The translations under genes and the position numbers were made by a program. The notes beneath the pieces are model-generated. The model did not search any database. It saw nothing but the letters and a program-made list of their open reading frames with translations, and had not been told where the DNA came from. Positions 4,981 through 35,575 of a DNA stretch of 35,949 nucleotides are shown here, piece after piece; the first letter of the stretch is position 1; every line of letters begins with the position of its first letter. The stretch is from Pseudomonadota bacterium (GTDB lineage: Bacteria; Desulfobacterota; JAPLJL01), in contig JAPLJI010000082.1 in assembly GCA_026388655.1 (NCBI GenBank), forward strand, positions 1 through 35,949. Direction: 5' to 3'.

Positions 4981-5166
4981 TTCTTCGCGGACTCTGCCGC
5001 GGGGTTACCTTATTTCTGTCATTCCCGTCCCGCATCAGAGTGCGGGATAAACTCCAGCGGGAATCCAGTTTTTTCCGGAATTCTCTGGATCCCTGCTTTC
5101 GCAGGGATGACGGACATCTTAAAAACTTCTCTTAGATACCCCACGGACTCTGCCGCGGGGAGGTTC
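4981..5166. repeat. Nested palindromic intergenic element, copy B1
   Basis: The element is framed by GGACTCTGCCGCGGGG on both sides (near 4990 and 5144). Inside are inverted modules: CCCGCATCAGAGTGCGGG, ATTCCC...GGGAAT as in Neisseria dRS3 repeats, and ATCCCTGCTTTCGCAGGGAT. A second copy lies at 32021-32245. Positions 5019-5067 recur there exactly but inverted (32132-32180). B1 lies downstream of the nucleotidyltransferase gene, upstream of the 4959 gene, and may act as a transcript-end hairpin. Confidence 0.85.
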
Positions 5167-6048: not shown

Positions 6049-6281
6049 CCCCTCACCTCTCCGAGCCGTAGGCTCCTACCCTCCCTCCGGGCTGGAGGCC
6101 CTTACGGGCAGGAAGCCGGCCTGTAAGCCCTACCCTCCGGCCTGTAAGCCCTACGGGCTGGAAGCGGGGCTGGAAGCGGGGCTGGAAGCGGAGCCGGAGG
6201 CCTCGCCCTCTCCTTCAGGACGAACCTTCAGGACGAGCCTTCAGGACAAGTCCCTCGAGGGGAGAGGGGACGGGAGAGGGT
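6049..6281. repeat. GC-rich GGCTGGAAGC element, copy A1
   Basis: This occupies most of the 5935-6294 gap. It opens CCCCTCACCTCTCCGAGCCG and closes with GGGGAGAGGGGACGGGAGAG, so its ends are roughly inverted. The middle repeats CCTCCGGGCTGGA, GGCCTGTAAGCCCT and GGGGCTGGAAGC units, and the 3' part has ACCTTCAGGACGA-type repeats. A second copy lies at 31836-31991. Short pieces recur inside three coding genes (26309-26335, 26659-26738, 34558-34589). The rest of the gap (5935-6048) shows nothing recognisable beyond the small-ORF ribosome-binding site. Confidence 0.85.
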
Positions 6282-10663: not shown

Positions 10664-10961
10664 AAGCCTCCTTTCCTCAGGCACGACCGCCGACGGCAGA
10701 CCGCTGACCGCCGTTAAAACATTTCGTTTAGATCGTTAGTTTCGTTTCCTTGGTTTCTTAGCTTTCCAGCTTTTTTTCTTTCGACACTATGGACACAACG
10801 AACTCAATGGACACTATGGACGCCTTACGTTTTACGCCTCACGTTTTACGGCTGCTTGCTGCTTACTACTTACTCCCTACTGCCTACTGCGCTCTGCGCT
10901 TTTCGTTTCTTGCCTTTGACTGCGGTCGGCGGTCGGCGGTCCGCGGTCAGGGGCTACGCCC
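10664..10961. repeat. Long word mosaic with inverted ends
   Basis: No gene is seen here. The left end has ACCGCCGACGGCAGACCGC; the right end has the inverse family (GCGGTCGGCGGTCGGCGGTC at 10922-10941). Between them lie GACACTATGGACAC words (10784-10820), TTACGTTTTACGCC words (10824-10851), TGCTTACTACTTACTCCC words and GCGCTCTGCGCTTTTC. The same words reappear in the 5' ends of the genes at 14485 and 23193. Confidence 0.8.
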
Positions 10962-14353: not shown

Positions 14354-14588
14354 TTAACATATTCAGGAGATGAAGGCGAGAGGCAAGAGGCGAGAGATAA
14401 GGCCACCAGAAACAAGAGCACCAGAGCACCAGTAACCAGAGAAACCAGAGCAACCAAAGAAACCAGAAAAATCAGGTAACCCCGATGAACTCAATGAACC
14501 CAACGAACCCGAAGAACCGTCTTACTTCTCACGTCTTACGTCTTGCTTTTTTCTGGACGGCGGTCGGCGGTCTGCTGTCGGCGGTCGT
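14354..14588. repeat. Word mosaic running into the next gene
   Basis: It comprises GAGGCAAGAGGCGAGAG words, then ACCAGAGCACCAGTAACC and GAAACCAGAGCAACCAAAG words, then ATGAACTCAATGAACCC, TTACTTCTCACGTCTTACG and GCGGTCGGCGGTCTGCTG. From 14485 onward these words are the N-terminal coding sequence of the exported TPR-like protein. Confidence 0.75.
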
Positions 14589-15384
14589 TTTTTCCCCCGC
14601 GCCGCGTCCGGCCTTCGCCGGCGGGCTGGTGAAAGCAAACTCGCAGAACCCCGAGGCGCAGAAGCTGATTGACCGGGCCTGGAAGGTGGATAAGAGCGAA
14701 TATACCGCGGAGGTTTTCCGGCAATGCATCCCCTTGATGGAGCAGGCGGACAAGCTCGACCCCCGGAACGCCGAGATCCTCAGCGAACTTTCCCGTTTCA
14801 ACTGGAGCCTGGGCGACGAACTGCCCAAGCAGACTCCCGAGCAGCGGAAAATCCTGGAAGACCTGTACGCCCGGGGCCTCAGATACGCGGAGGAATCCCT
14901 GAAGATCCGGGAGACCTCGGCCGGGAATTACTGGTACGCGGTCAACAAGGGCGCGGGCCTGGAGTTCAGTTCCATCTTCGCGCAGGCCGCCGGTTTCTTC
15001 CCCATCTACAGCCACTACCAGTATGTTCTTAAGAACGAACCCGATTACTATTACGGCGGCCCGGGCCGGCTCTGGACGGAAATCATCTCACGGGTCCCCC
15101 GGAAGGTGGTCGAGATGGTGGGCCGGAAATACGTGGACGAGGCCATGACGGAGATAGACCGGGGCATCGAGAAGGAGCCGCGCTACCTGGACAACTACGT
15201 CTACAAGGCCAGGTTCCTGTACGTATTTTTTCAGGACCGGGAGGAGGTTTTCAAACTCCTGGACCAGGTCTTGAAGGCGGACCCCAAATGTTTTCCCGGG
15301 GAAGACGCTCTCACCCGGGTGGGCCAGCGCAACGGCAGACATCTCTGGAAAAAGATCACCGGTAAAGATTACCCGGCGAAATAG
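14485..15384 (+). CDS. Exported TPR-like protein resembling TRAP-associated TatT family
   Basis: A 299-residue protein with an N-terminal signal peptide: hydrophobic segment VLRLAFFWTAVGGLLSAVVF and a PAFAGG cleavage region near residues 48-52. The mature part is helical, with paired-helix repeats (IPLMEQADKLDPRNAEILSELSRF, RGLRYAEESLKIRE, FKLLDQVLKADPKCFPGEDA). The segment GNYWYAVNKG with later SSIFAQAAG recalls the T component of TRAP-type systems (TatT, Treponema), a TPR-like periplasmic protein; no TRAP transporter is adjacent, so this is tentative. The Shine-Dalgarno (AGGT) is weak. The signal peptide codons are made of the dispersed intergenic words, which is unusual. Confidence 0.7.
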   Translation: MNSMNPTNPKNRLTSHVLRLAFFWTAVGGLLSAVVFSPAPRPAFAGGLVKANSQNPEAQKLIDRAWKVDKSEYTAEVFRQCIPLMEQADKLDPRNAEILSELSRFNWSLGDELPKQTPEQRKILEDLYARGLRYAEESLKIRETSAGNYWYAVNKGAGLEFSSIFAQAAGFFPIYSHYQYVLKNEPDYYYGGPGRLWTEIISRVPRKVVEMVGRKYVDEAMTEIDRGIEKEPRYLDNYVYKARFLYVFFQDREEVFKLLDQVLKADPKCFPGEDALTRVGQRNGRHLWKKITGKDYPAK

Positions 15385-23025: not shown

Positions 23026-23335
23026 TGAAAGGTCAAAGGGCAGAGAGCAGAGAGAAGGAAATCAGGTTATCAGGGAATCAGGAAGTGGAAATCGGGATAT
23101 CAGGTTATCGGGTGACCAAAGAAACCTCGAGAGAAAAGCTGGAAGCTAGGACGCTGGGAAGCTGGTAACCCGAAACCTATTACCTATTACCTATGACCCA
23201 TAACCCATCGCCTTCTTTTACGGCGGTCGGCCGTCGGCGGTCAGCTGTCTCCTTTATCTTTACTGTGGTCTGCGGTCTGTGGTCTGCGGTCGTCATTTGC
23301 CCCTTGCGCTTTGCCCTTTGCGCTCTGCTCCTGAT
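23026..23335. repeat. Word mosaic running into the beta-barrel gene
   Basis: It comprises AGAGAGCAGAGAGAAGGAAA, ATCAGGTTATCAGGGAATC, TATTACCTATTACCTATGAC, GGTCTGCGGTCTGTGGTC and TTGCGCTTTGCCCTTTGCGC. From 23193 on, these words are the signal-peptide codons of the outer-membrane protein. Confidence 0.75.
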
Positions 23336-24725
23336 CTTTTGCCCCCTTCCGGGCCGGGCCGCGGATTGGTCCGGTTCGGTGGATGCCTCTTTCCGATTAT
23401 TGGACCAGGATCATCTCGATGAGCTGGTTTCCACCTCCCCGGCCAACCGCTTTTATTTCGCCCCGCCCGCCCAGAACGGGTTTGACGCCTACGCCGTCCT
23501 CCGGCCCGCGGTGAAACTCCGCCTGGGGTTCCTGGAGGCGGGCCTGGGACTGGATACCGGCGATATTTCTTACCATGCCATCGATGACGGCCAGCTGGCG
23601 GACCGGGCGAAAAACACCTACTTTCTCGAGCGGGCCGAATTCCAGGCCTTTCTTTTCCACTCGGGCTGGCTTTCCCTGCGCGGCGGCTTCTGGCCGGTGA
23701 ATTCCGCCTCGGGTTACCTGGTGAGTTATTCCCTCCTCGGGTTCGAGGCGGAGGGCGATCTCGATATCCCGCTCGCTTTTCCCCTGAACTTCTGGATCCG
23801 GGGGAACAAGGTGGACCCGGAGAAATTTTTCGATCCGGACCAGAAGTGCTTTCTCGTCGAGGGCGGGGCCGGGTATGCCCTGGGGAGGAAGGGCAGGTTG
23901 AAGGTTTTTTACGACTACTTCTCCGATCCGGACAATTTTTTCAAGGATCTCCTGAACCCGATCCTGGAGCGGGCCCTGACCCAGCGTTTCGGGGAGGCCT
24001 ACCGGCAGTTGCTGGAGGGTTTCGGCGGGGTGATCAAGGAAAGCTCGGACCGGCTTCATTACCTGGGGGCCTCGGTCGAGAAGGAGATCGGGGCCTTTTC
24101 GGGCCGGGGCATTTTGATTTACCAGTTCGGGGAGATGGACCTTTCCGGGGAGGTTCCCCGGCTCCGGCAGGCGCCGCTGGAATTTTCGGAGCAGGTACCC
24201 ATCCGGGGCGAGCTCCTGGACATTTCCCTGGGGCTCCGGCCCCACCGGAAGATCCGGCTGGAGGGAGGAATTTTTTGGAGCTCGGGCGACGGTTTCCGGG
24301 ACCTGAAGCCGGAACAGGCCGGGGCGGGCCTGGAAATCAACGGGTTCTTTTCCATCCTTCCCCAGATCACCAAAACCAATCTCTTTTTTAACGGGGGCAT
24401 CTCCGAGAATCTTTTCACCGGCGCGGCCCAGGCCTCCGGGATCGACGGGCACGGGGTCATGGCTCCCGTCATTTCCGCCTCGCTCGACCCCCTCCGGAGG
24501 CTTTCGCTGGATTTCACCGGGGCGCTTCTCCTGGCCCAGGAAGGACGGGTCAACGGCGGTTCCCGCTACGGGGAGGAGTTTGACCTCACCCTCTCCTACC
24601 GGCCGCTCCGGGAGCTCTCCGGACTGTTCGAAGGCGACATCCTTTTCCCGGGAGACTTTTTCCCCGCGGGCAGTGACCCGGTCTGGCGCCTCTCCGCCGG
24701 CGCGGATTACCGGTTTGAATTTTAA
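23193..24725 (+). CDS. Outer-membrane beta-barrel protein, alginate-export-like
   Basis: A 510-residue protein with a signal peptide ending PGRAA-DW near residue 56. The rest shows alternating amphipathic strands with many aromatic residues and ends DYRFEF, a terminal Phe as used by the BAM machinery. The C-terminal stretch YGEEFDLTLSYRPL...EGDILFPGDFF resembles the G.E.D...Y......F.PG.F pattern of alginate-export-type barrels. It is probably an 18-strand-class porin for a polymer or solute; the cargo is unknown. The start is unclear: ATG 23193 lacks a Shine-Dalgarno, and a TTG near 23308 would give a compact 20-residue signal peptide. Either way the signal peptide is encoded by repeat words. 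Confidence 0.75.
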   Translation: MTHNPSPSFTAVGRRRSAVSFIFTVVCGLWSAVVICPLRFALCALLLIFCPLPGRAADWSGSVDASFRLLDQDHLDELVSTSPANRFYFAPPAQNGFDAYAVLRPAVKLRLGFLEAGLGLDTGDISYHAIDDGQLADRAKNTYFLERAEFQAFLFHSGWLSLRGGFWPVNSASGYLVSYSLLGFEAEGDLDIPLAFPLNFWIRGNKVDPEKFFDPDQKCFLVEGGAGYALGRKGRLKVFYDYFSDPDNFFKDLLNPILERALTQRFGEAYRQLLEGFGGVIKESSDRLHYLGASVEKEIGAFSGRGILIYQFGEMDLSGEVPRLRQAPLEFSEQVPIRGELLDISLGLRPHRKIRLEGGIFWSSGDGFRDLKPEQAGAGLEINGFFSILPQITKTNLFFNGGISENLFTGAAQASGIDGHGVMAPVISASLDPLRRLSLDFTGALLLAQEGRVNGGSRYGEEFDLTLSYRPLRELSGLFEGDILFPGDFFPAGSDPVWRLSAGADYRFEF

Positions 24726-25087: not shown

Positions 25088-25666
25088 ATGGCAGAAGCTA
25101 AAGACGATCCGGGAGCCGAGCTCTTTCTCCGGGTGAGCCGGGGAGACGAGGCGGCCTTTTCGGAACTGTTCAAAATGTACGCGAAACCGATGGTGAATTA
25201 CTCCTACCGTTATCTCGGGAACTGGCACGACGCCGAGGAAGCCGCCCAGGAAATCTTTCTCCGGCTTTACCGGATGGCGCCCCGCTACGAACGGCGGGCC
25301 TCGTTTAAAACCTTCATCTACCGGGTGGCCACCAACATCCTGCGGAACTGGCTCCGGGATCATCTCCGGGACCGGGAGACCGGCTCCCTGGTTCTTGTAG
25401 ATGCCATCCCGGGGGTGGAGAGGGACCTGGATCAGGATCTCGATCATCAGGCGCTCCTGGCGCGGGTGGCCGGCGAGCTCCCCCGACTGCCCGAGCGGGA
25501 GCGGGCGGCACTGATCCTGGTCGCCCTGGAGGGCCATTCCTACGAGGAAGCGGCCGTGGTGATGGAAACCAGCTTCCGGGGGGTGAAGTCGCTGGTGCAC
25601 CGGTCGCGGGAACGGATCAGGAAAGCGCTGAAAAGCGGTAGGCAGGAGATGGGAGATGGGAGATAG
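25088..25666 (+). CDS. ECF-type RNA polymerase sigma factor
   Basis: A 192-residue protein. Region 2 (AFSELFKMYAKPMVNYSYRYLGNWHDAEEAAQEIFLRLYR and the following FKTFIYRVATNILRNWLRD) recognises -10, and region 4 (LPERERAALILVALEGHSYEEAAVVM...VKSLVHRSRERIRKAL) recognises -35; there is no region 1 or 3. It is followed by an anti-sigma factor, so it is likely held inactive at the membrane until an envelope signal. The last residues (RQEMGDGR) and the stop lie in GGAGATGGGAGATGGGAG word DNA, so the C-terminus has been recruited from, or truncated by, the repeat. Confidence 0.93.
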   Translation: MAEAKDDPGAELFLRVSRGDEAAFSELFKMYAKPMVNYSYRYLGNWHDAEEAAQEIFLRLYRMAPRYERRASFKTFIYRVATNILRNWLRDHLRDRETGSLVLVDAIPGVERDLDQDLDHQALLARVAGELPRLPERERAALILVALEGHSYEEAAVVMETSFRGVKSLVHRSRERIRKALKSGRQEMGDGR

Positions 25667-25762: not shown

Positions 25763-26236
25763 ATGAATTGCCGCCAAGCCGAAAAGAACCTTTCCGCCTA
25801 CCTGGATCGGGAATTGGAGCTCAAGGACGCCAAGGCGTTGGAGGCGCATCTCTCCGATTGCCCGCGGTGCCGGGAAAAACTGGCCGAACTGGAGAAGATT
25901 GAAAAGGCCATTTCGGCCTTTCCCGAACGGGACCCTTCGCCTTTCCTCTGGACCCGCGTGAAGGCCGGCGTCGAATCCGGGGCGGAGCCCGCGAAACCCC
26001 TGGCCCGGCCGGTCCTGGCCCGTTTCCGGCTGGCCCCGGTTCCGGTCCGTTGGGCGGGGATCGCGCTTTTCCTGGCGGTGATCCTGGGCGGGGTGGTATT
26101 TTCGCTGCGGAGAGAGGCGGAGCGGCCGCGGTCGGCCGGCCTCGAGATCGTAGTGGCCGAGAATCTCGATCTCCTGGAAAACTATGAGTTGATTCAAGAT
26201 CTCGACATCCTGGAAAACTGGGAGGGAAAAAGTTAA
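25763..26236 (+). CDS. Membrane anti-sigma factor with zinc-finger (ZAS) domain
   Basis: A 157-residue protein, AAGGAG upstream. The cytoplasmic N-terminus has the anti-sigma zinc pattern: C3, H29 and CPRC (LEAHLSDCPRCREKLAEL). One membrane segment follows (WAGIALFLAVILGGVVFSL, about 95-113). The periplasmic tail of about 40 residues ends ENLDLLENYELIQDLDILENW, an acidic Leu/Asn-rich motif. It should hold the ECF sigma factor until the signal arrives, when it is cleaved or changes shape. The next gene starts at its stop codon (TAATG), and its product carries the same LLEN-type motif. Confidence 0.92.
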   Translation: MNCRQAEKNLSAYLDRELELKDAKALEAHLSDCPRCREKLAELEKIEKAISAFPERDPSPFLWTRVKAGVESGAEPAKPLARPVLARFRLAPVPVRWAGIALFLAVILGGVVFSLRREAERPRSAGLEIVVAENLDLLENYELIQDLDILENWEGKS

Positions 26237-26532
26237 TGCGAGCAGGCTGGCTGAAATCTTTTCTCTTGGTTCTGCCGTTTTTCCTGGTCGGCTTCCTGCC
26301 CGGATGGGCTTCCAGCCCCGCTTCCAGCCCGGAGGGCGGGACCACGGCGCCGTCGGGGGAAACCGCGGTTTCCCTCCCCCGGGTCTTGCCGGCCGGGAAA
26401 CCGGAACGGCTCACCGCGGAAGAAAAAGAGATCCTTTCCCGGGTGGAGCTTCTGGAAAACCTGGAGCTTCTGGAAAACATAGAGCTTTTCGAGGACTTTC
26501 TCCTCGTGCTCAAGGAGGATGAGGAAGAATGA
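26236..26532 (+). CDS. Small exported acidic protein with LLEN motif
   Basis: A 98-residue protein translated from a start overlapping the anti-sigma stop by one base. It has a signal peptide (KSFLLVLPFFLVGFLPGWA), a Ser/Pro/Gly linker, and an acidic helix LLENLELLENIELFEDFLLV (about 71-90) ending KEDEEE. The linker segment ASSPASSPEGG is encoded by an inverted piece of the A repeat (26309-26335). The LLEN helix echoes the periplasmic tail of the anti-sigma factor, suggesting that they interact or share a binding partner. I do not recognise a family. Confidence 0.75.
   Translation: MRAGWLKSFLLVLPFFLVGFLPGWASSPASSPEGGTTAPSGETAVSLPRVLPAGKPERLTAEEKEILSRVELLENLELLENIELFEDFLLVLKEDEEE
26309..26335 (-). 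repeat. A-family repeat piece inside a coding gene
   Basis: These 27 bases are the exact reverse complement of 31872-31898 in copy A2 (CCTCCGGGCTGGAAGC units). They encode the linker after the signal peptide of the small exported protein. Confidence 0.85.
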
Positions 26533-28082
26533 AAACTAAAACCCGCTTCCCGTGGTTTGTCTTCGGACTTTCCCTCGTTCTTTTCGGCGGGGGTTTCGTG
26601 AAAACCGGCTCTCCGGCCACGCTCGACCAGGTCCGGGGGGACGTGCAGGTCGTCCCCGCCCTCCGGGCTGGAGGCCCTCCGGGCTGGAAGCCGGACGGTA
26701 AGTCTGACGGTAAGCCCTCCGGGCTGGAAGCGGGGCGGCCGGTCTCGGCCGGGGCCGCGGTCAGCCCGGGTGAATCCGTCCGGGTAGGCCCGGATTCCCA
26801 CGCCCGGCTCCAGCTTCCGGACGGGACCCAGGTCGAAATTTTCGCCCGGACCGAGCTCCTTTTTAATGAGGATCTCTCCGATCCGGACGCCCGGGGCCAC
26901 CTGCTGGGCCTGATCTGGGGGCGGATCCTTTCCCGGGTGGTGCCGCGGAAGGAAGGGGGGGCGCCCTACAAAGTGGTCACCCCGGCCACGGTCTGCGGCG
27001 TGCGGGGGACGGAGTTCGTGGTGGCGGTGGCCGACGACGGGGAAACCCGGGTCGGCGTGGAGAAGGGCGAGGTGGAGGTGACCGGGACGGACGGGAGCGA
27101 GCGGCTCTCCGCGGGGACGGAAACCCGGGTCCTGGTGGGCCAGAGACCCCTGCGGCCGGTCCAGGCCCTGTTGGAAAAGATTGACTGGGAGGGCTGGATC
27201 AACGAGAGAAACCAGCGGCTCCGGGAAAAACTGGCCGAGCGGGTGGCCCTGCTCAACCAAACCGCCCGGGCCATGGATGCCCGGCTGGACCAGATAAACC
27301 GGCGCCTGCAGAAAGTAGAAGCGGACGCCCGCGAGCTCGCCCGGAAGAGACTGGAGGCCGGGGAGCAGGGCGACTGGGGCCGTTTCCAGGAGCTGGGCAC
27401 CCAGCTGAAGACCAAGCTGGACGAGGGGGTGGAGGTCTGCGGGCTCGCGGCCGAGACGCAGGGAAGGCGGATCGTGGCTTTCACCTCCGGGGAGCGGGCG
27501 CTCCAGGGGGTCGCCGGCCCCGGGGTAAAACTGCAGGGCCGGCTCCAGAAACTGGCCGGTGACCTGGACGCCTTCCGCGTTTCGCTCGCGGAAAAGGCCA
27601 AGGCCGACCAGGAAGTTTACGGGAGGCGGATCCAGACCTTTCACGATCTCTTCCAGGATTACGGCCGGAAGGCCCAGGAGCTGCTCGGGAAAACCGGGAC
27701 GGAACAGAAGCTCCTCGAGCGCTGGAACAAGCTTTCCCCGGAAAAGCAGGAGGAGCTGAAGCGGAAATACGAGCAGTGGAAGGGCCTTTCCGAGGAAACC
27801 CGGAAGAAGGTTCTCGACAACTGGGACCGCTTCCAGAAGATGAGCCAGTCCGAGCGGCGGGAGATTATGAAAAATCTCCGGGAATTTGAGCGCCTGGGCC
27901 TGGCGGAGAAGGTCCGGATCAAGGAGCATTTTGAGCACTGGCGCTCGCTCACCCCGGAACGCCGGGAGGAGATCAAACGTAAATTCCGGAAGTTCAAGGC
28001 CCTTTCCCCCGAGGAAAGGGAGGCCGTCCTGGAAAGAATCCGGGACCGGGGGCAATCAGGGCCGCGGCCGCCGGGACGGTAG
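26529..28082 (+). CDS. FecR-domain protein with coiled coil and DUF3106-like repeats
   Basis: A 517-residue protein overlapping the previous gene by ATGA, so translationally coupled. A signal peptide or anchor (WFVFGLSLVLFGGGFV) leads to a FecR domain (about 33-195: VRGDVQVV..., PDSHARLQLPDGTQVEI, KVVTPATVCGVRGTEFVV). A long helical region (about 210-390) follows, then DUF3106-like repeats of the LSPEKQEELKRKYEQWKGLS type up to 505. The FecR domain senses or transmits envelope state, and DUF3106-like parts may bind RNA or protein; their role is not established. The FecR domain is interrupted by about 26 residues encoded by A-family repeat (26659-26738). It is the last gene of the four-gene operon. 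Confidence 0.85.
   Translation: MKTKTRFPWFVFGLSLVLFGGGFVKTGSPATLDQVRGDVQVVPALRAGGPPGWKPDGKSDGKPSGLEAGRPVSAGAAVSPGESVRVGPDSHARLQLPDGTQVEIFARTELLFNEDLSDPDARGHLLGLIWGRILSRVVPRKEGGAPYKVVTPATVCGVRGTEFVVAVADDGETRVGVEKGEVEVTGTDGSERLSAGTETRVLVGQRPLRPVQALLEKIDWEGWINERNQRLREKLAERVALLNQTARAMDARLDQINRRLQKVEADARELARKRLEAGEQGDWGRFQELGTQLKTKLDEGVEVCGLAAETQGRRIVAFTSGERALQGVAGPGVKLQGRLQKLAGDLDAFRVSLAEKAKADQEVYGRRIQTFHDLFQDYGRKAQELLGKTGTEQKLLERWNKLSPEKQEELKRKYEQWKGLSEETRKKVLDNWDRFQKMSQSERREIMKNLREFERLGLAEKVRIKEHFEHWRSLTPERREEIKRKFRKFKALSPEEREAVLERIRDRGQSGPRPPGR
26659..26738 (+). repeat. A-family repeat pieces in frame inside the FecR domain
   Basis: CCCTCCGGGCTGGAGGCCCT (26659-26678) matches copy A1 (6082-6101) exactly, followed by CCTCCGGGCTGGAAGCCGG and GTAAGCCCTCCGGGCTGG units. 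It keeps the frame and encodes residues 44-70 with Gly/Pro/Lys bias. Confidence 0.85.
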
Positions 28083-30304: not shown

Positions 30305-30339
30305 TTCGACTCAATAGATTTATCCCGAAGGTTTTATCT

Positions 30340-30565
30340 GACGGACACAATAGACACAATGAACTCAATGGACACTATGGACACAATGGACACTATGGAC
30401 ACAATGGACACTATGGACACGATAGACCCTATGGACACTATGGACACTATGGACACTATGGACACTATGGACACTATGGACACTATGGACACTATGGACA
30501 CAATAGACCCTATGGACTGTTTTTGTGACACTATGGACACGATAGACCCAATGGACTCAATGGAC
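30340..30565. repeat. 9-bp tandem array GGACACTAT, upstream of galE
   Basis: About 20 or more near-perfect 9-bp units (GGACACTAT, with GGACACAAT, AGACCCTAT and GAACTCAAT variants) occur, the cleanest run being about 30434-30497. All three frames on both strands are largely stop-free because of the period. It ends 17 bp before the galE start and forms the right, inverted counterpart of 29868-29908. Confidence 0.9.
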
Positions 30566-31835: not shown

Positions 31836-31991
31836 CCCCCTCTCCTCTCCGAGCCGTAGGCTCCTACCCTCCCTCCGGGCTGGAAGCGGGGCTGGAAGCG
31901 GAGCCGGAAGCGGAGCCGGAGGCCCAACCCTCTCCTTCAGGACGAACCTTCAGGACAAGTCCCTCGAGGGGAGAGGAAAAGGGTGAGGGTG
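31836..31991. repeat. GC-rich GGCTGGAAGC element, copy A2
   Basis: It has the same order as A1: CTCTCCGAGCCGTAGGCTCC, CCTCCGGGCTGGAAGCGGGG, CAGGACGAACCTTCAGGACA, TCCCTCGAGGGGAGAGG, ending GGGTGAGGGTG. It is shorter than A1 because fewer internal units are present. Confidence 0.85.
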
Positions 31992-32020: not shown

Positions 32021-32245
32021 ATTCCCCGTGATCTTGCCATGGGGTTACCTTATTCCGTCATTCCGCACTTGATGCGGAATCCAGTTGTTTTTTCTGGATC
32101 CCCGCTTTCGCGGGGATGACAGATGGAGAAGTGGATTCCCGCTGGAGTTTATCCCGCACTCTGATGCGGGACGGGAATGAAAACCCAGAGCCTAAGAATC
32201 GTTTTGAGAAAGATACCCCGCGGTCTTGGCGCGGGGAGCTTCATT
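32021..32245. repeat. Nested palindromic intergenic element, copy B2
   Basis: The outer frame (GGGGTTACCTTATT near 32040 and AGATACCCCGCGG near 32210) matches B1 in the same orientation. The inner 49-base module 32132-32180 is inverted relative to B1. It also has the perfect hairpin ATCCCCGCTTTCGCGGGGAT. Confidence 0.85.
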
Positions 32246-34123: not shown

Positions 34124-35575
34124 GTGACCCTGATTCCTTCCCACTGTTACCGACAATACGACATCCGCGGGATCGCGGAAGAGGAATTTCTCTCCGCGGG
34201 GATCGAGCGGCTCGGCCAGGCGATCGGGACCTACCTGCTCAAGTTTGCCCCGGGGAGGAGCAAAAAGGTAACCCTCGGCCGGGACGCCCGTCTGAGTTCC
34301 CCCCGTTTAAAGGACGCCCTCGCGGCCGGCCTGGCCCAGGCCGGGTTGGGGGTCGTCGATCTCGGGGTCTGCCCCACTCCCGTGCTTTATTTCTCGCTTT
34401 TTCACCTGAAACCCCGGGGCGGGGTGATGATCACCGGTTCGCACAACCCGCCCGAATACAACGGCTTTAAAGTCTGCTCGGGGAAGGAAACCCTTTACGG
34501 GGACGAGATCCAGAAAATCGGCAAGCTGGCTTCCTCCGGTCGACTCGCCCGGGGGCCCTTCCAGCCCGGAGGGCTTACAGGCCGGAGGGGGGGCCGGATC
34601 GAAACCCGGGAGATCATCCCGGATTATATTGATTTCATGGTGAGGCATTTCCGCGGGATCACGCCCTGGGCCCGGAAGCGCAGGGGCTTCCGGGTGGTTC
34701 TCGATTCCGGGAACGGAACCGCCGGCCTGGTGGCCCCGGAGATCCTGAAGCGGCTCCGGGTCAAGGCGGTCGAACTTTACAGTGAGCCGGATGGGCGGTT
34801 TCCCCACCACCATCCCGACCCCACGGTCCCGGAGAACATGCGGGACCTGGTCCAGGCCGTGGCCCGGGAGCGGGCGGCCGCGGGGATCGGTTATGACGGG
34901 GACGCCGACCGTCTCGGGGTGGTGGATTCGGAAGGGAACATCGTCTGGGGGGACACGCTGATGGCGGTTTTCTCCCGCGATATTCTCCGGAAAAACCCGG
35001 GAGCGGCGATCATCGGCGAGGTCAAATGCTCGCAGGTGATGTACGACGAGATCTCCCGCGCCGGGGGCCGGGCCATCATGTGGAAAACCGGCCATTCCTT
35101 GATCAAGAAGAAAATGCGGGAGGAAAAAGCCCTCCTGGCCGGGGAGATGAGCGGGCACCTCTTTTTCGCCGACCGGTACTTCGGCTACGACGACGCGATT
35201 TACGCCTCGCTCCGGCTGGTGGAGCTTCTGCTCCGGAGCGGGAAGAGCCTCTCCCGGTGGGCGGGGGAGCTTCCGGCCGTCTGCTCCACGCCCGAGATCC
35301 GGGTGGACTGCCGGGAGGAGCGGAAGTTCGAAATCGTGAAAGACCTGCGGGAATTCCTCTCCGATCCCGGCCGGGTCCGCAGCCATTTCGGGCTGGAACC
35401 GCGCGAGGTGGTTACCGTGGACGGGATCCGGATTGCCTTTGACCGGGGCTGGGTTTTGGTGCGGGCCTCCAACACCCAGCCGGCCCTGGTGCTCCGCTAC
35501 GAGGCGGAGGATGAACAGGTCCTGAAACGGCTTCGCGATTCTTTCGAAACCCTGCTGAATAAAGTAACGGGGTAG
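34124..35575 (+). CDS. manB: Phosphomannomutase / phosphoglucomutase
   Basis: A 483-residue protein with a GTG start and no obvious Shine-Dalgarno. It converts mannose-6-phosphate to mannose-1-phosphate (and often glucose phosphates). The phosphoserine loop is TGSHNPPEYNGFK (Ser106), the metal site GYDGDADRLGVVD (near 256), the sugar-binding GEMSGHLFF, and the phosphate loop RASNTQPALVLRYEA near the C-terminus, so the protein is complete. About 11 residues (PFQPGGLTGRR region, about 145-156) are encoded by an inverted A-family repeat and sit in a variable loop. It follows manC as expected. Confidence 0.94.
   Translation: MTLIPSHCYRQYDIRGIAEEEFLSAGIERLGQAIGTYLLKFAPGRSKKVTLGRDARLSSPRLKDALAAGLAQAGLGVVDLGVCPTPVLYFSLFHLKPRGGVMITGSHNPPEYNGFKVCSGKETLYGDEIQKIGKLASSGRLARGPFQPGGLTGRRGGRIETREIIPDYIDFMVRHFRGITPWARKRRGFRVVLDSGNGTAGLVAPEILKRLRVKAVELYSEPDGRFPHHHPDPTVPENMRDLVQAVARERAAAGIGYDGDADRLGVVDSEGNIVWGDTLMAVFSRDILRKNPGAAIIGEVKCSQVMYDEISRAGGRAIMWKTGHSLIKKKMREEKALLAGEMSGHLFFADRYFGYDDAIYASLRLVELLLRSGKSLSRWAGELPAVCSTPEIRVDCREERKFEIVKDLREFLSDPGRVRSHFGLEPREVVTVDGIRIAFDRGWVLVRASNTQPALVLRYEAEDEQVLKRLRDSFETLLNKVTG
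34558..34589 (-). repeat. A-family repeat piece in frame inside the phosphomannomutase gene
   Basis: These 32 bases are the reverse complement of 6133-6164 in copy A1 with one mismatch (GGCCTGTAAGCCCT and GGGCTGGAAG units). The frame is kept. Confidence 0.85.

Follow-up and report, generated by a model that had tools for sequence, protein, structure and literature searches.

The window analyzed in this study (the whole stretch of DNA, 35,949 nucleotides in length) comes from a genome of 3.56 Mb, referred to here as G000, which was compared with those of its two congeners, G001 and G002. Two genes of the window are of particular concern. One encodes a FecR/DUF3106 protein and is the last gene of a cluster that also contains an ECF sigma factor (25088-25666) and a zf-HC2 anti-sigma factor (25763-26236); its dN/dS against the G001 orthologue is 0.36, with purifying selection outside the linker described below. 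The other encodes a phosphomannomutase/phosphoglucomutase (PMM), which is also under purifying selection (dN/dS 0.19, G000 versus G002). Both genes, as well as the small ORF preceding the FecR gene, carry copies of a dispersed repeat family, here called A, that is found mostly between genes (Table 1).

Table 1. Genes and A-family copies in the window, with positions counted from its first nucleotide.
Feature	Position	Strand	Remarks
Small exported-protein ORF, 98 aa	26236..26532	+	Between anti-sigma and FecR genes; no Pfam match
A units in the small ORF, in frame	26291..26336	-	End of the signal-peptide region
FecR/DUF3106 protein ORF, 517 aa	26529..28082	+	Open; Pfam: FecR (PF04773) aa 84-183, DUF3106 aa 399-500
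A-family copy in the FecR gene, in frame	26655..26738	+	Shortened long-form core; codes for the Gly/Pro-rich linker LRAGGPPGWKPDGKSDGKPSGLEAG
A unit 1	26659..26675	+	CCCTCCGGGCTGGAGGC, read as LRAGG
A unit 2	26675..26691	+	CCCTCCGGGCTGGAAGC, read as PPGWK in a shifted frame
A unit 3	26715..26731	+	CCCTCCGGGCTGGAAGC, read as PSGLEA in the third frame
Candidate insert-spanning peptide stretches			Predicted translation: VQVVPALRAGGPP... and LARGPFQPGGLTGRR...
PMM ORF, 483 aa	34124..35575	+	
A copy in the PMM gene, in frame	34557..34593	-	+11 aa versus PDB 2fkf and outgroups, in the loop joining domains I and II
Intergenic long-form A element	6079..6206	+	Nested in a CCCTCACCTCTCC...GGGAGAGGGTGA repeat
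Intergenic A element	31846..31924	+	Nested in an outer repeat of the CCCTCACCTCTCC...GGGAGAGGGTGA kind

The A copy in the FecR gene comprises three clear units in the pattern CCCTCCGGGCTGGARGC, and since these are spaced 16 and 40 nt apart, they are read in three different frames. The copy is collinear with the long intergenic form of A over 84 nt (80% identity, E 1e-17) and shares a 22-nt identity with the intergenic copy at 31871-31892. Against the A consensus it scores 94, a value reached by none of 1000 shuffled sequences (mean 19, maximum 34). An earlier note on this DNA had claimed that a dispersed repeat is inserted in frame in this gene and that larger copies exist between genes; both statements hold, as the ORF remains open through the segment and the long-form intergenic copies align with its entire length.

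Two details of that description require revision. The repeat had been placed centrally within the FecR domain, whereas it encodes approximately residues 43-70, after the first strand (GDVQV) but ahead of the domain delimited by Pfam, and thus lies in the linker just before it. In addition, the gain had been put at about 26 residues. When the edges were defined by FecR homologues, as the earlier note had proposed, the linker from the first strand to the next conserved turn measured 39 aa in the G000 protein and 41 aa in its G001 orthologue, compared to 17-19 aa in FecR proteins of the phylum and in the paralogues of G000 itself; the net gain is therefore approximately 20-22 aa. No un-inserted FecR orthologue was found in the homologue search, so the ancestral state of the linker rests on homologues at 25-35% identity. 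Because the linkers of G000 and G001 are nearly equal in length, the event in G000 may have been a replacement rather than a fresh insertion.

The earlier note had also looked to close homologues that might share these residues without resembling the repeat, a check whose outcome is mixed. The nearest homologue, that of G001, does have an equally long linker, but its residues differ from those of G000 and are not encoded by A. Since 332 of 1000 shuffles score as well against A as the G001 linker does, a decayed A copy was ruled out there; instead, 53-63 nt of the linker match two other loci of the G001 genome with 90-94% identity, so that the site is occupied, again in frame, by a different dispersed repeat. 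That the site holds A in one genome and a different repeat in the other indicates that it accepts repeats in general. Elsewhere in the G001 gene (L139 / L032), the signal-peptide region is encoded by the repeats CTGCTTACTGCCTACTG, an A-like GACCC-GTA-TGGGTC hairpin and TGCTCTTTGCTCTTTGC, and the gene runs out in repeat DNA ahead of the DUF3106 part.

A comparable pattern was observed in PMM, which is exactly 11 residues longer than PDB 2fkf at the loop that joins domains I and II of this enzyme. This loop is 29 aa long in G000, 30 aa in G002 and 29 aa in G001, compared to 18 aa in 25 of the 27 phylum outgroups (19 and 23 aa in the other two). The three congeners have different sub-segments of A in the loop, read in one frame in G000 and G002 and in another in G001. 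The stop triplets of the intergenic A consensus are absent from the PMM copies in the frame that is used; for example, the consensus CCCGTAAGGG is CCCGTCGGG in the G001 gene. In G002, an acyl-CoA synthetase paralogue (L125:835-3015) has gained 7 aa in a Gly-rich loop of its CoA-binding domain, where the stretch from the CoA-domain AS to the next helix is 17 aa long. Of 19 homologues whose alignment covers the loop completely, 18 have 10 aa there and one has 9 aa. The paralogue with the gain reads SYTAALA where its relatives have SHTGALA, and it may therefore have lost a catalytic His. A GH123-like protein of G002 (L138:591-2723) carries a 90-nt A copy; no homologues of this protein were found in 24 genomes. 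It also contains in-frame arrays of a 9-nt repeat (DTKNTTNPTDTRNTTDTTDT, DPMDPTNPTN).

The earlier note had proposed counting how often A falls within coding sequences and keeps the frame. The stretches around A hits in the three congeneric genomes were scanned for clusters of at least 25 nt, with single 17-nt intragenic hits at 2-3 mismatches taken as chance. Among the matches listed, 140 clusters were identified, of which 133 lie outside genes and 7 inside coding sequences, and the frame is kept in all seven, a small sample that includes one small ORF without homologues. Contig ends also limit the scan, with 7 clusters at edges. Codon-usage scoring indicated that both flanks are coding in five of the coding-sequence clusters, in the same frame each time, and identified no cluster among the matches listed in the three genomes with flanks coding in different frames. 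In every case that could be compared, A fills a loop or linker. For A copies outside coding sequences, the fraction open in a given frame is 0.62, so only modest selection is needed for in-frame survival.

Between genes, A is a palindrome in which 97% of cells are paired and 27 double changes occur, versus 8.2 in shuffles; the pairing score drops strongly when the alignment is slid by one column. Single-strand folding compared to shuffles gives weak z-scores, and the structure thus rests on covariation rather than on energy. The unit is abundant: when up to 2 mismatches are allowed, it occurs 135 times in the genome of 3.56 Mb, whereas a reversed-pattern control occurs once. A core-less outer form of 34 nt, CCCTCCGGGCCGTAGGCCCTACAGGGCCGGAGGC, is present in all three congeneric genomes, and the A core, CCCTCCGGCCTGTAAGCCCTACGGGCTGGAAGC, sits at the center of this form; because the core shares the plan of the form that encloses it, the element looks self-nested. 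The A copies are commonly hosted by other repeats, including CCCTCACC...GGGAGAGG, CCCCTTTGTTAAAAGGGG, GGATTCCTGC...GCAGGAATGAC, and TCGTCAA and GTTTCGA arrays. Orthologous spacers of the congeners differ completely: the spacer corresponding to that of the intergenic element at 31846 contains a different A copy in another host repeat in G002 and no A in G001.

The window contains further repetitive sequences. A long array of the 9-nt unit GACACTATG extends over 30330-30565, upstream of a galactose epimerase-like gene, and the unit also forms short arrays at 10769, 14129 and 15661. Within 14485-14590, the ORF at 14485-15384 begins with MNSMNPTNPKN from a 9-nt repeat array and derives its hydrophobic segment TAVGGLLSAVV from a GGCGGTCGGCGGTC repeat, while the signal-peptide region (23193-23320) of the ORF at 23193-24725 is encoded by GGCGGTCGGC and TTTGCGCTTTGCC repeats. 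A separate family of palindromic repeats, of the GGGAATCC type, is represented by 52-nt inverted copies at 5019-5070 and 32129-32180 that are 98% complementary. An Rfam search of the window returned a tRNA and nothing else.

A is almost confined to the genus. A search of 395 phylum genomes located the 33-nt core in 6 of them, namely the three congeners and three others with 1 to 3 copies each. Exact 33-nt cores occur in G158 (L296) and G048 (L300), members of other families in this phylum; the core of G048 lies inside a GGATTCCCGCC...GGAATGAC repeat; either transfer or very slow change is possible in these cases. No match to A was found among viral contigs, and a viral origin was accordingly set aside.

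Judging from the sequences, the FecR segment is most probably an in-frame, stop-free, shortened copy of A that either was inserted into the linker immediately preceding the FecR domain or took the place of an earlier repeat there, and that is tolerated as a flexible spacer in a surface linker. Repeats would tend to land in existing repeats within genes as they do between them, so that a loop once seeded with a repeat might become an acceptor in which repeats are swapped or rearranged. Events that break the frame would be purged by selection, and the inserted peptides may be tolerated as spacers without a conserved, sequence-specific role. The presence of different repeats in the same loops of congeners suggests that particular loops act as acceptor sites, with repeat turnover between species. 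A broader proposal, which we put forward only tentatively, is that such loops are standing acceptors in this genus: repeats would prefer other repeats, including intragenic ones, whole families would be swapped between species with the frame kept, and non-coding repeats would thereby diversify protein loops.

There are several alternative explanations for these observations. It is very improbable that the Gly/Pro-rich linker represents the kind of low-complexity linker that is ordinary in a GC-rich gene and came to resemble A by convergence. Gly-, Pro- and Arg-rich residues are usual in GC-rich linkers and the G001 linker has no similarity to A; however, the G001 linker corresponds to a dispersed repeat of another kind, the PMM loop is filled by the A family in three species, and convergence was ruled out by the nucleotide-level match of the FecR segment to the intergenic copies, which is collinear, and by its score against A, which none of the 1000 shuffled sequences reached. 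The inserted peptides could also have been selected for function, for instance by tuning linker length in the anti-sigma/FecR pathway or in PMM, and the nearly equal loop lengths across congeners despite different sequences (29, 30 and 29 aa in PMM; 39 and 41 aa in FecR) are consistent with this idea. It nevertheless appears quite unlikely, as the residues themselves differ between congeners and one insert lies in a paralogue that, by our reading of the alignment, has apparently lost a catalytic His.

The remaining alternatives concern how a tolerated A copy would have reached the FecR linker. A may have been moved by Y1/HuH (RAYT-like) transposases of the genome, like REP/REPIN elements, in which case the FecR copy would reflect transposition into single-stranded DNA. 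Seven Y1_Tnp (PF01797) genes in G000, the palindromic structure with covarying stems and abundant internal GTAG/GGAG, and the gain or loss of A in orthologous spacers would all fit such a mechanism, but we consider it rather unlikely. The 12 Y1_Tnp genes examined in the three genomes, some at loci cut by contig ends, have no adjoining A unit save one single weak match, on which basis an association of A with REPtrons was rejected; moreover, GTAG is not at the end of the element, and the outer arms are absent from the copies in coding sequences. A somewhat better case, although still short of an even chance, can be made for the spread and rearrangement of the repeats by replication template switching (for example at hairpins) or gene conversion, with no transposase involved and with the loops in coding sequences remodelled in the same way. 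In agreement with this, copies are nested in themselves and at the center of other repeats, partial cores occur, the number of units in PMM varies, and no target-site duplications are visible, the host sites being repeats themselves. On the other hand, template switching alone can hardly account for the presence of copies at unlinked sites and in distant genera (G048 and G158).

If loops do act as standing acceptors, then non-coding repeats would be driving a route of protein-loop diversification. The fixed sites of the three congeners allow a direct comparison of insertion, replacement and tolerance, providing a natural system for asking how non-coding repeats turn into protein and whether repeats target repeats.

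To our knowledge, most palindromes inserted in frame have been described from Rickettsia and from a small number of genomes rich in REPs. The Rickettsia palindromic elements (RPE-1 to RPE-8 and others) are dispersed palindromes found in frame in unrelated genes, where they are apparently tolerated (PMC10969869, PMC3733652). The parallel with these elements drawn in the earlier note is a fair one insofar as A is in frame and leaves the gene open in all seven coding-sequence clusters; it does not extend to genomic location, since approximately 95% of A is intergenic (7 of 140 clusters in coding sequences among the matches listed) while about half of RPEs lie inside ORFs (PMC10969869). A also differs in being GC-rich and self-nested, in belonging to a different lineage, and in that its coding copies are fragments limited to the core and are read in several frames, whereas RPEs encode a conserved peptide. 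The RPE-4/6 class has a CGTC tetranucleotide at one end (PMC3733652), which A does not, as the aligned elements start with CCTCCGG and end with CCGGAGG.

The intragenic GTAG/CGTC-tagged REPs described by Di Nocera et al. (2013) are palindromes of 20-40 nt with compensatory stem subfamilies; REP dimers inside genes encode 20-30 aa, flexible linkers or loops were suggested as places where the insertions may be neutral, and the recB genes of two Xanthomonas species are reported to carry different REPs at nearly corresponding positions (PMC3733652). Like GTAG REPs associated with RAYTs, A is a short palindrome with compensatory stem variants; unlike them, its units are nested in themselves and in other repeats, and the aligned elements have GTAG internally, with none at their termini. 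MITEs and REPINs are short, non-autonomous-looking palindromes at many intergenic sites (PMC10969869, PMC3116915), as is A. Inverted ends (CCTCC.../...GGAGG) were seen in A, and no partner transposase or target-site duplication was identified, although the host sites, being repeats themselves, would mask a duplication. Given what was found for the terminal tag, the RAYT neighbors and the intragenic share, A is best regarded, with the RPE comparison made by description, as akin to RPEs and intragenic REPs rather than as a member of either group.
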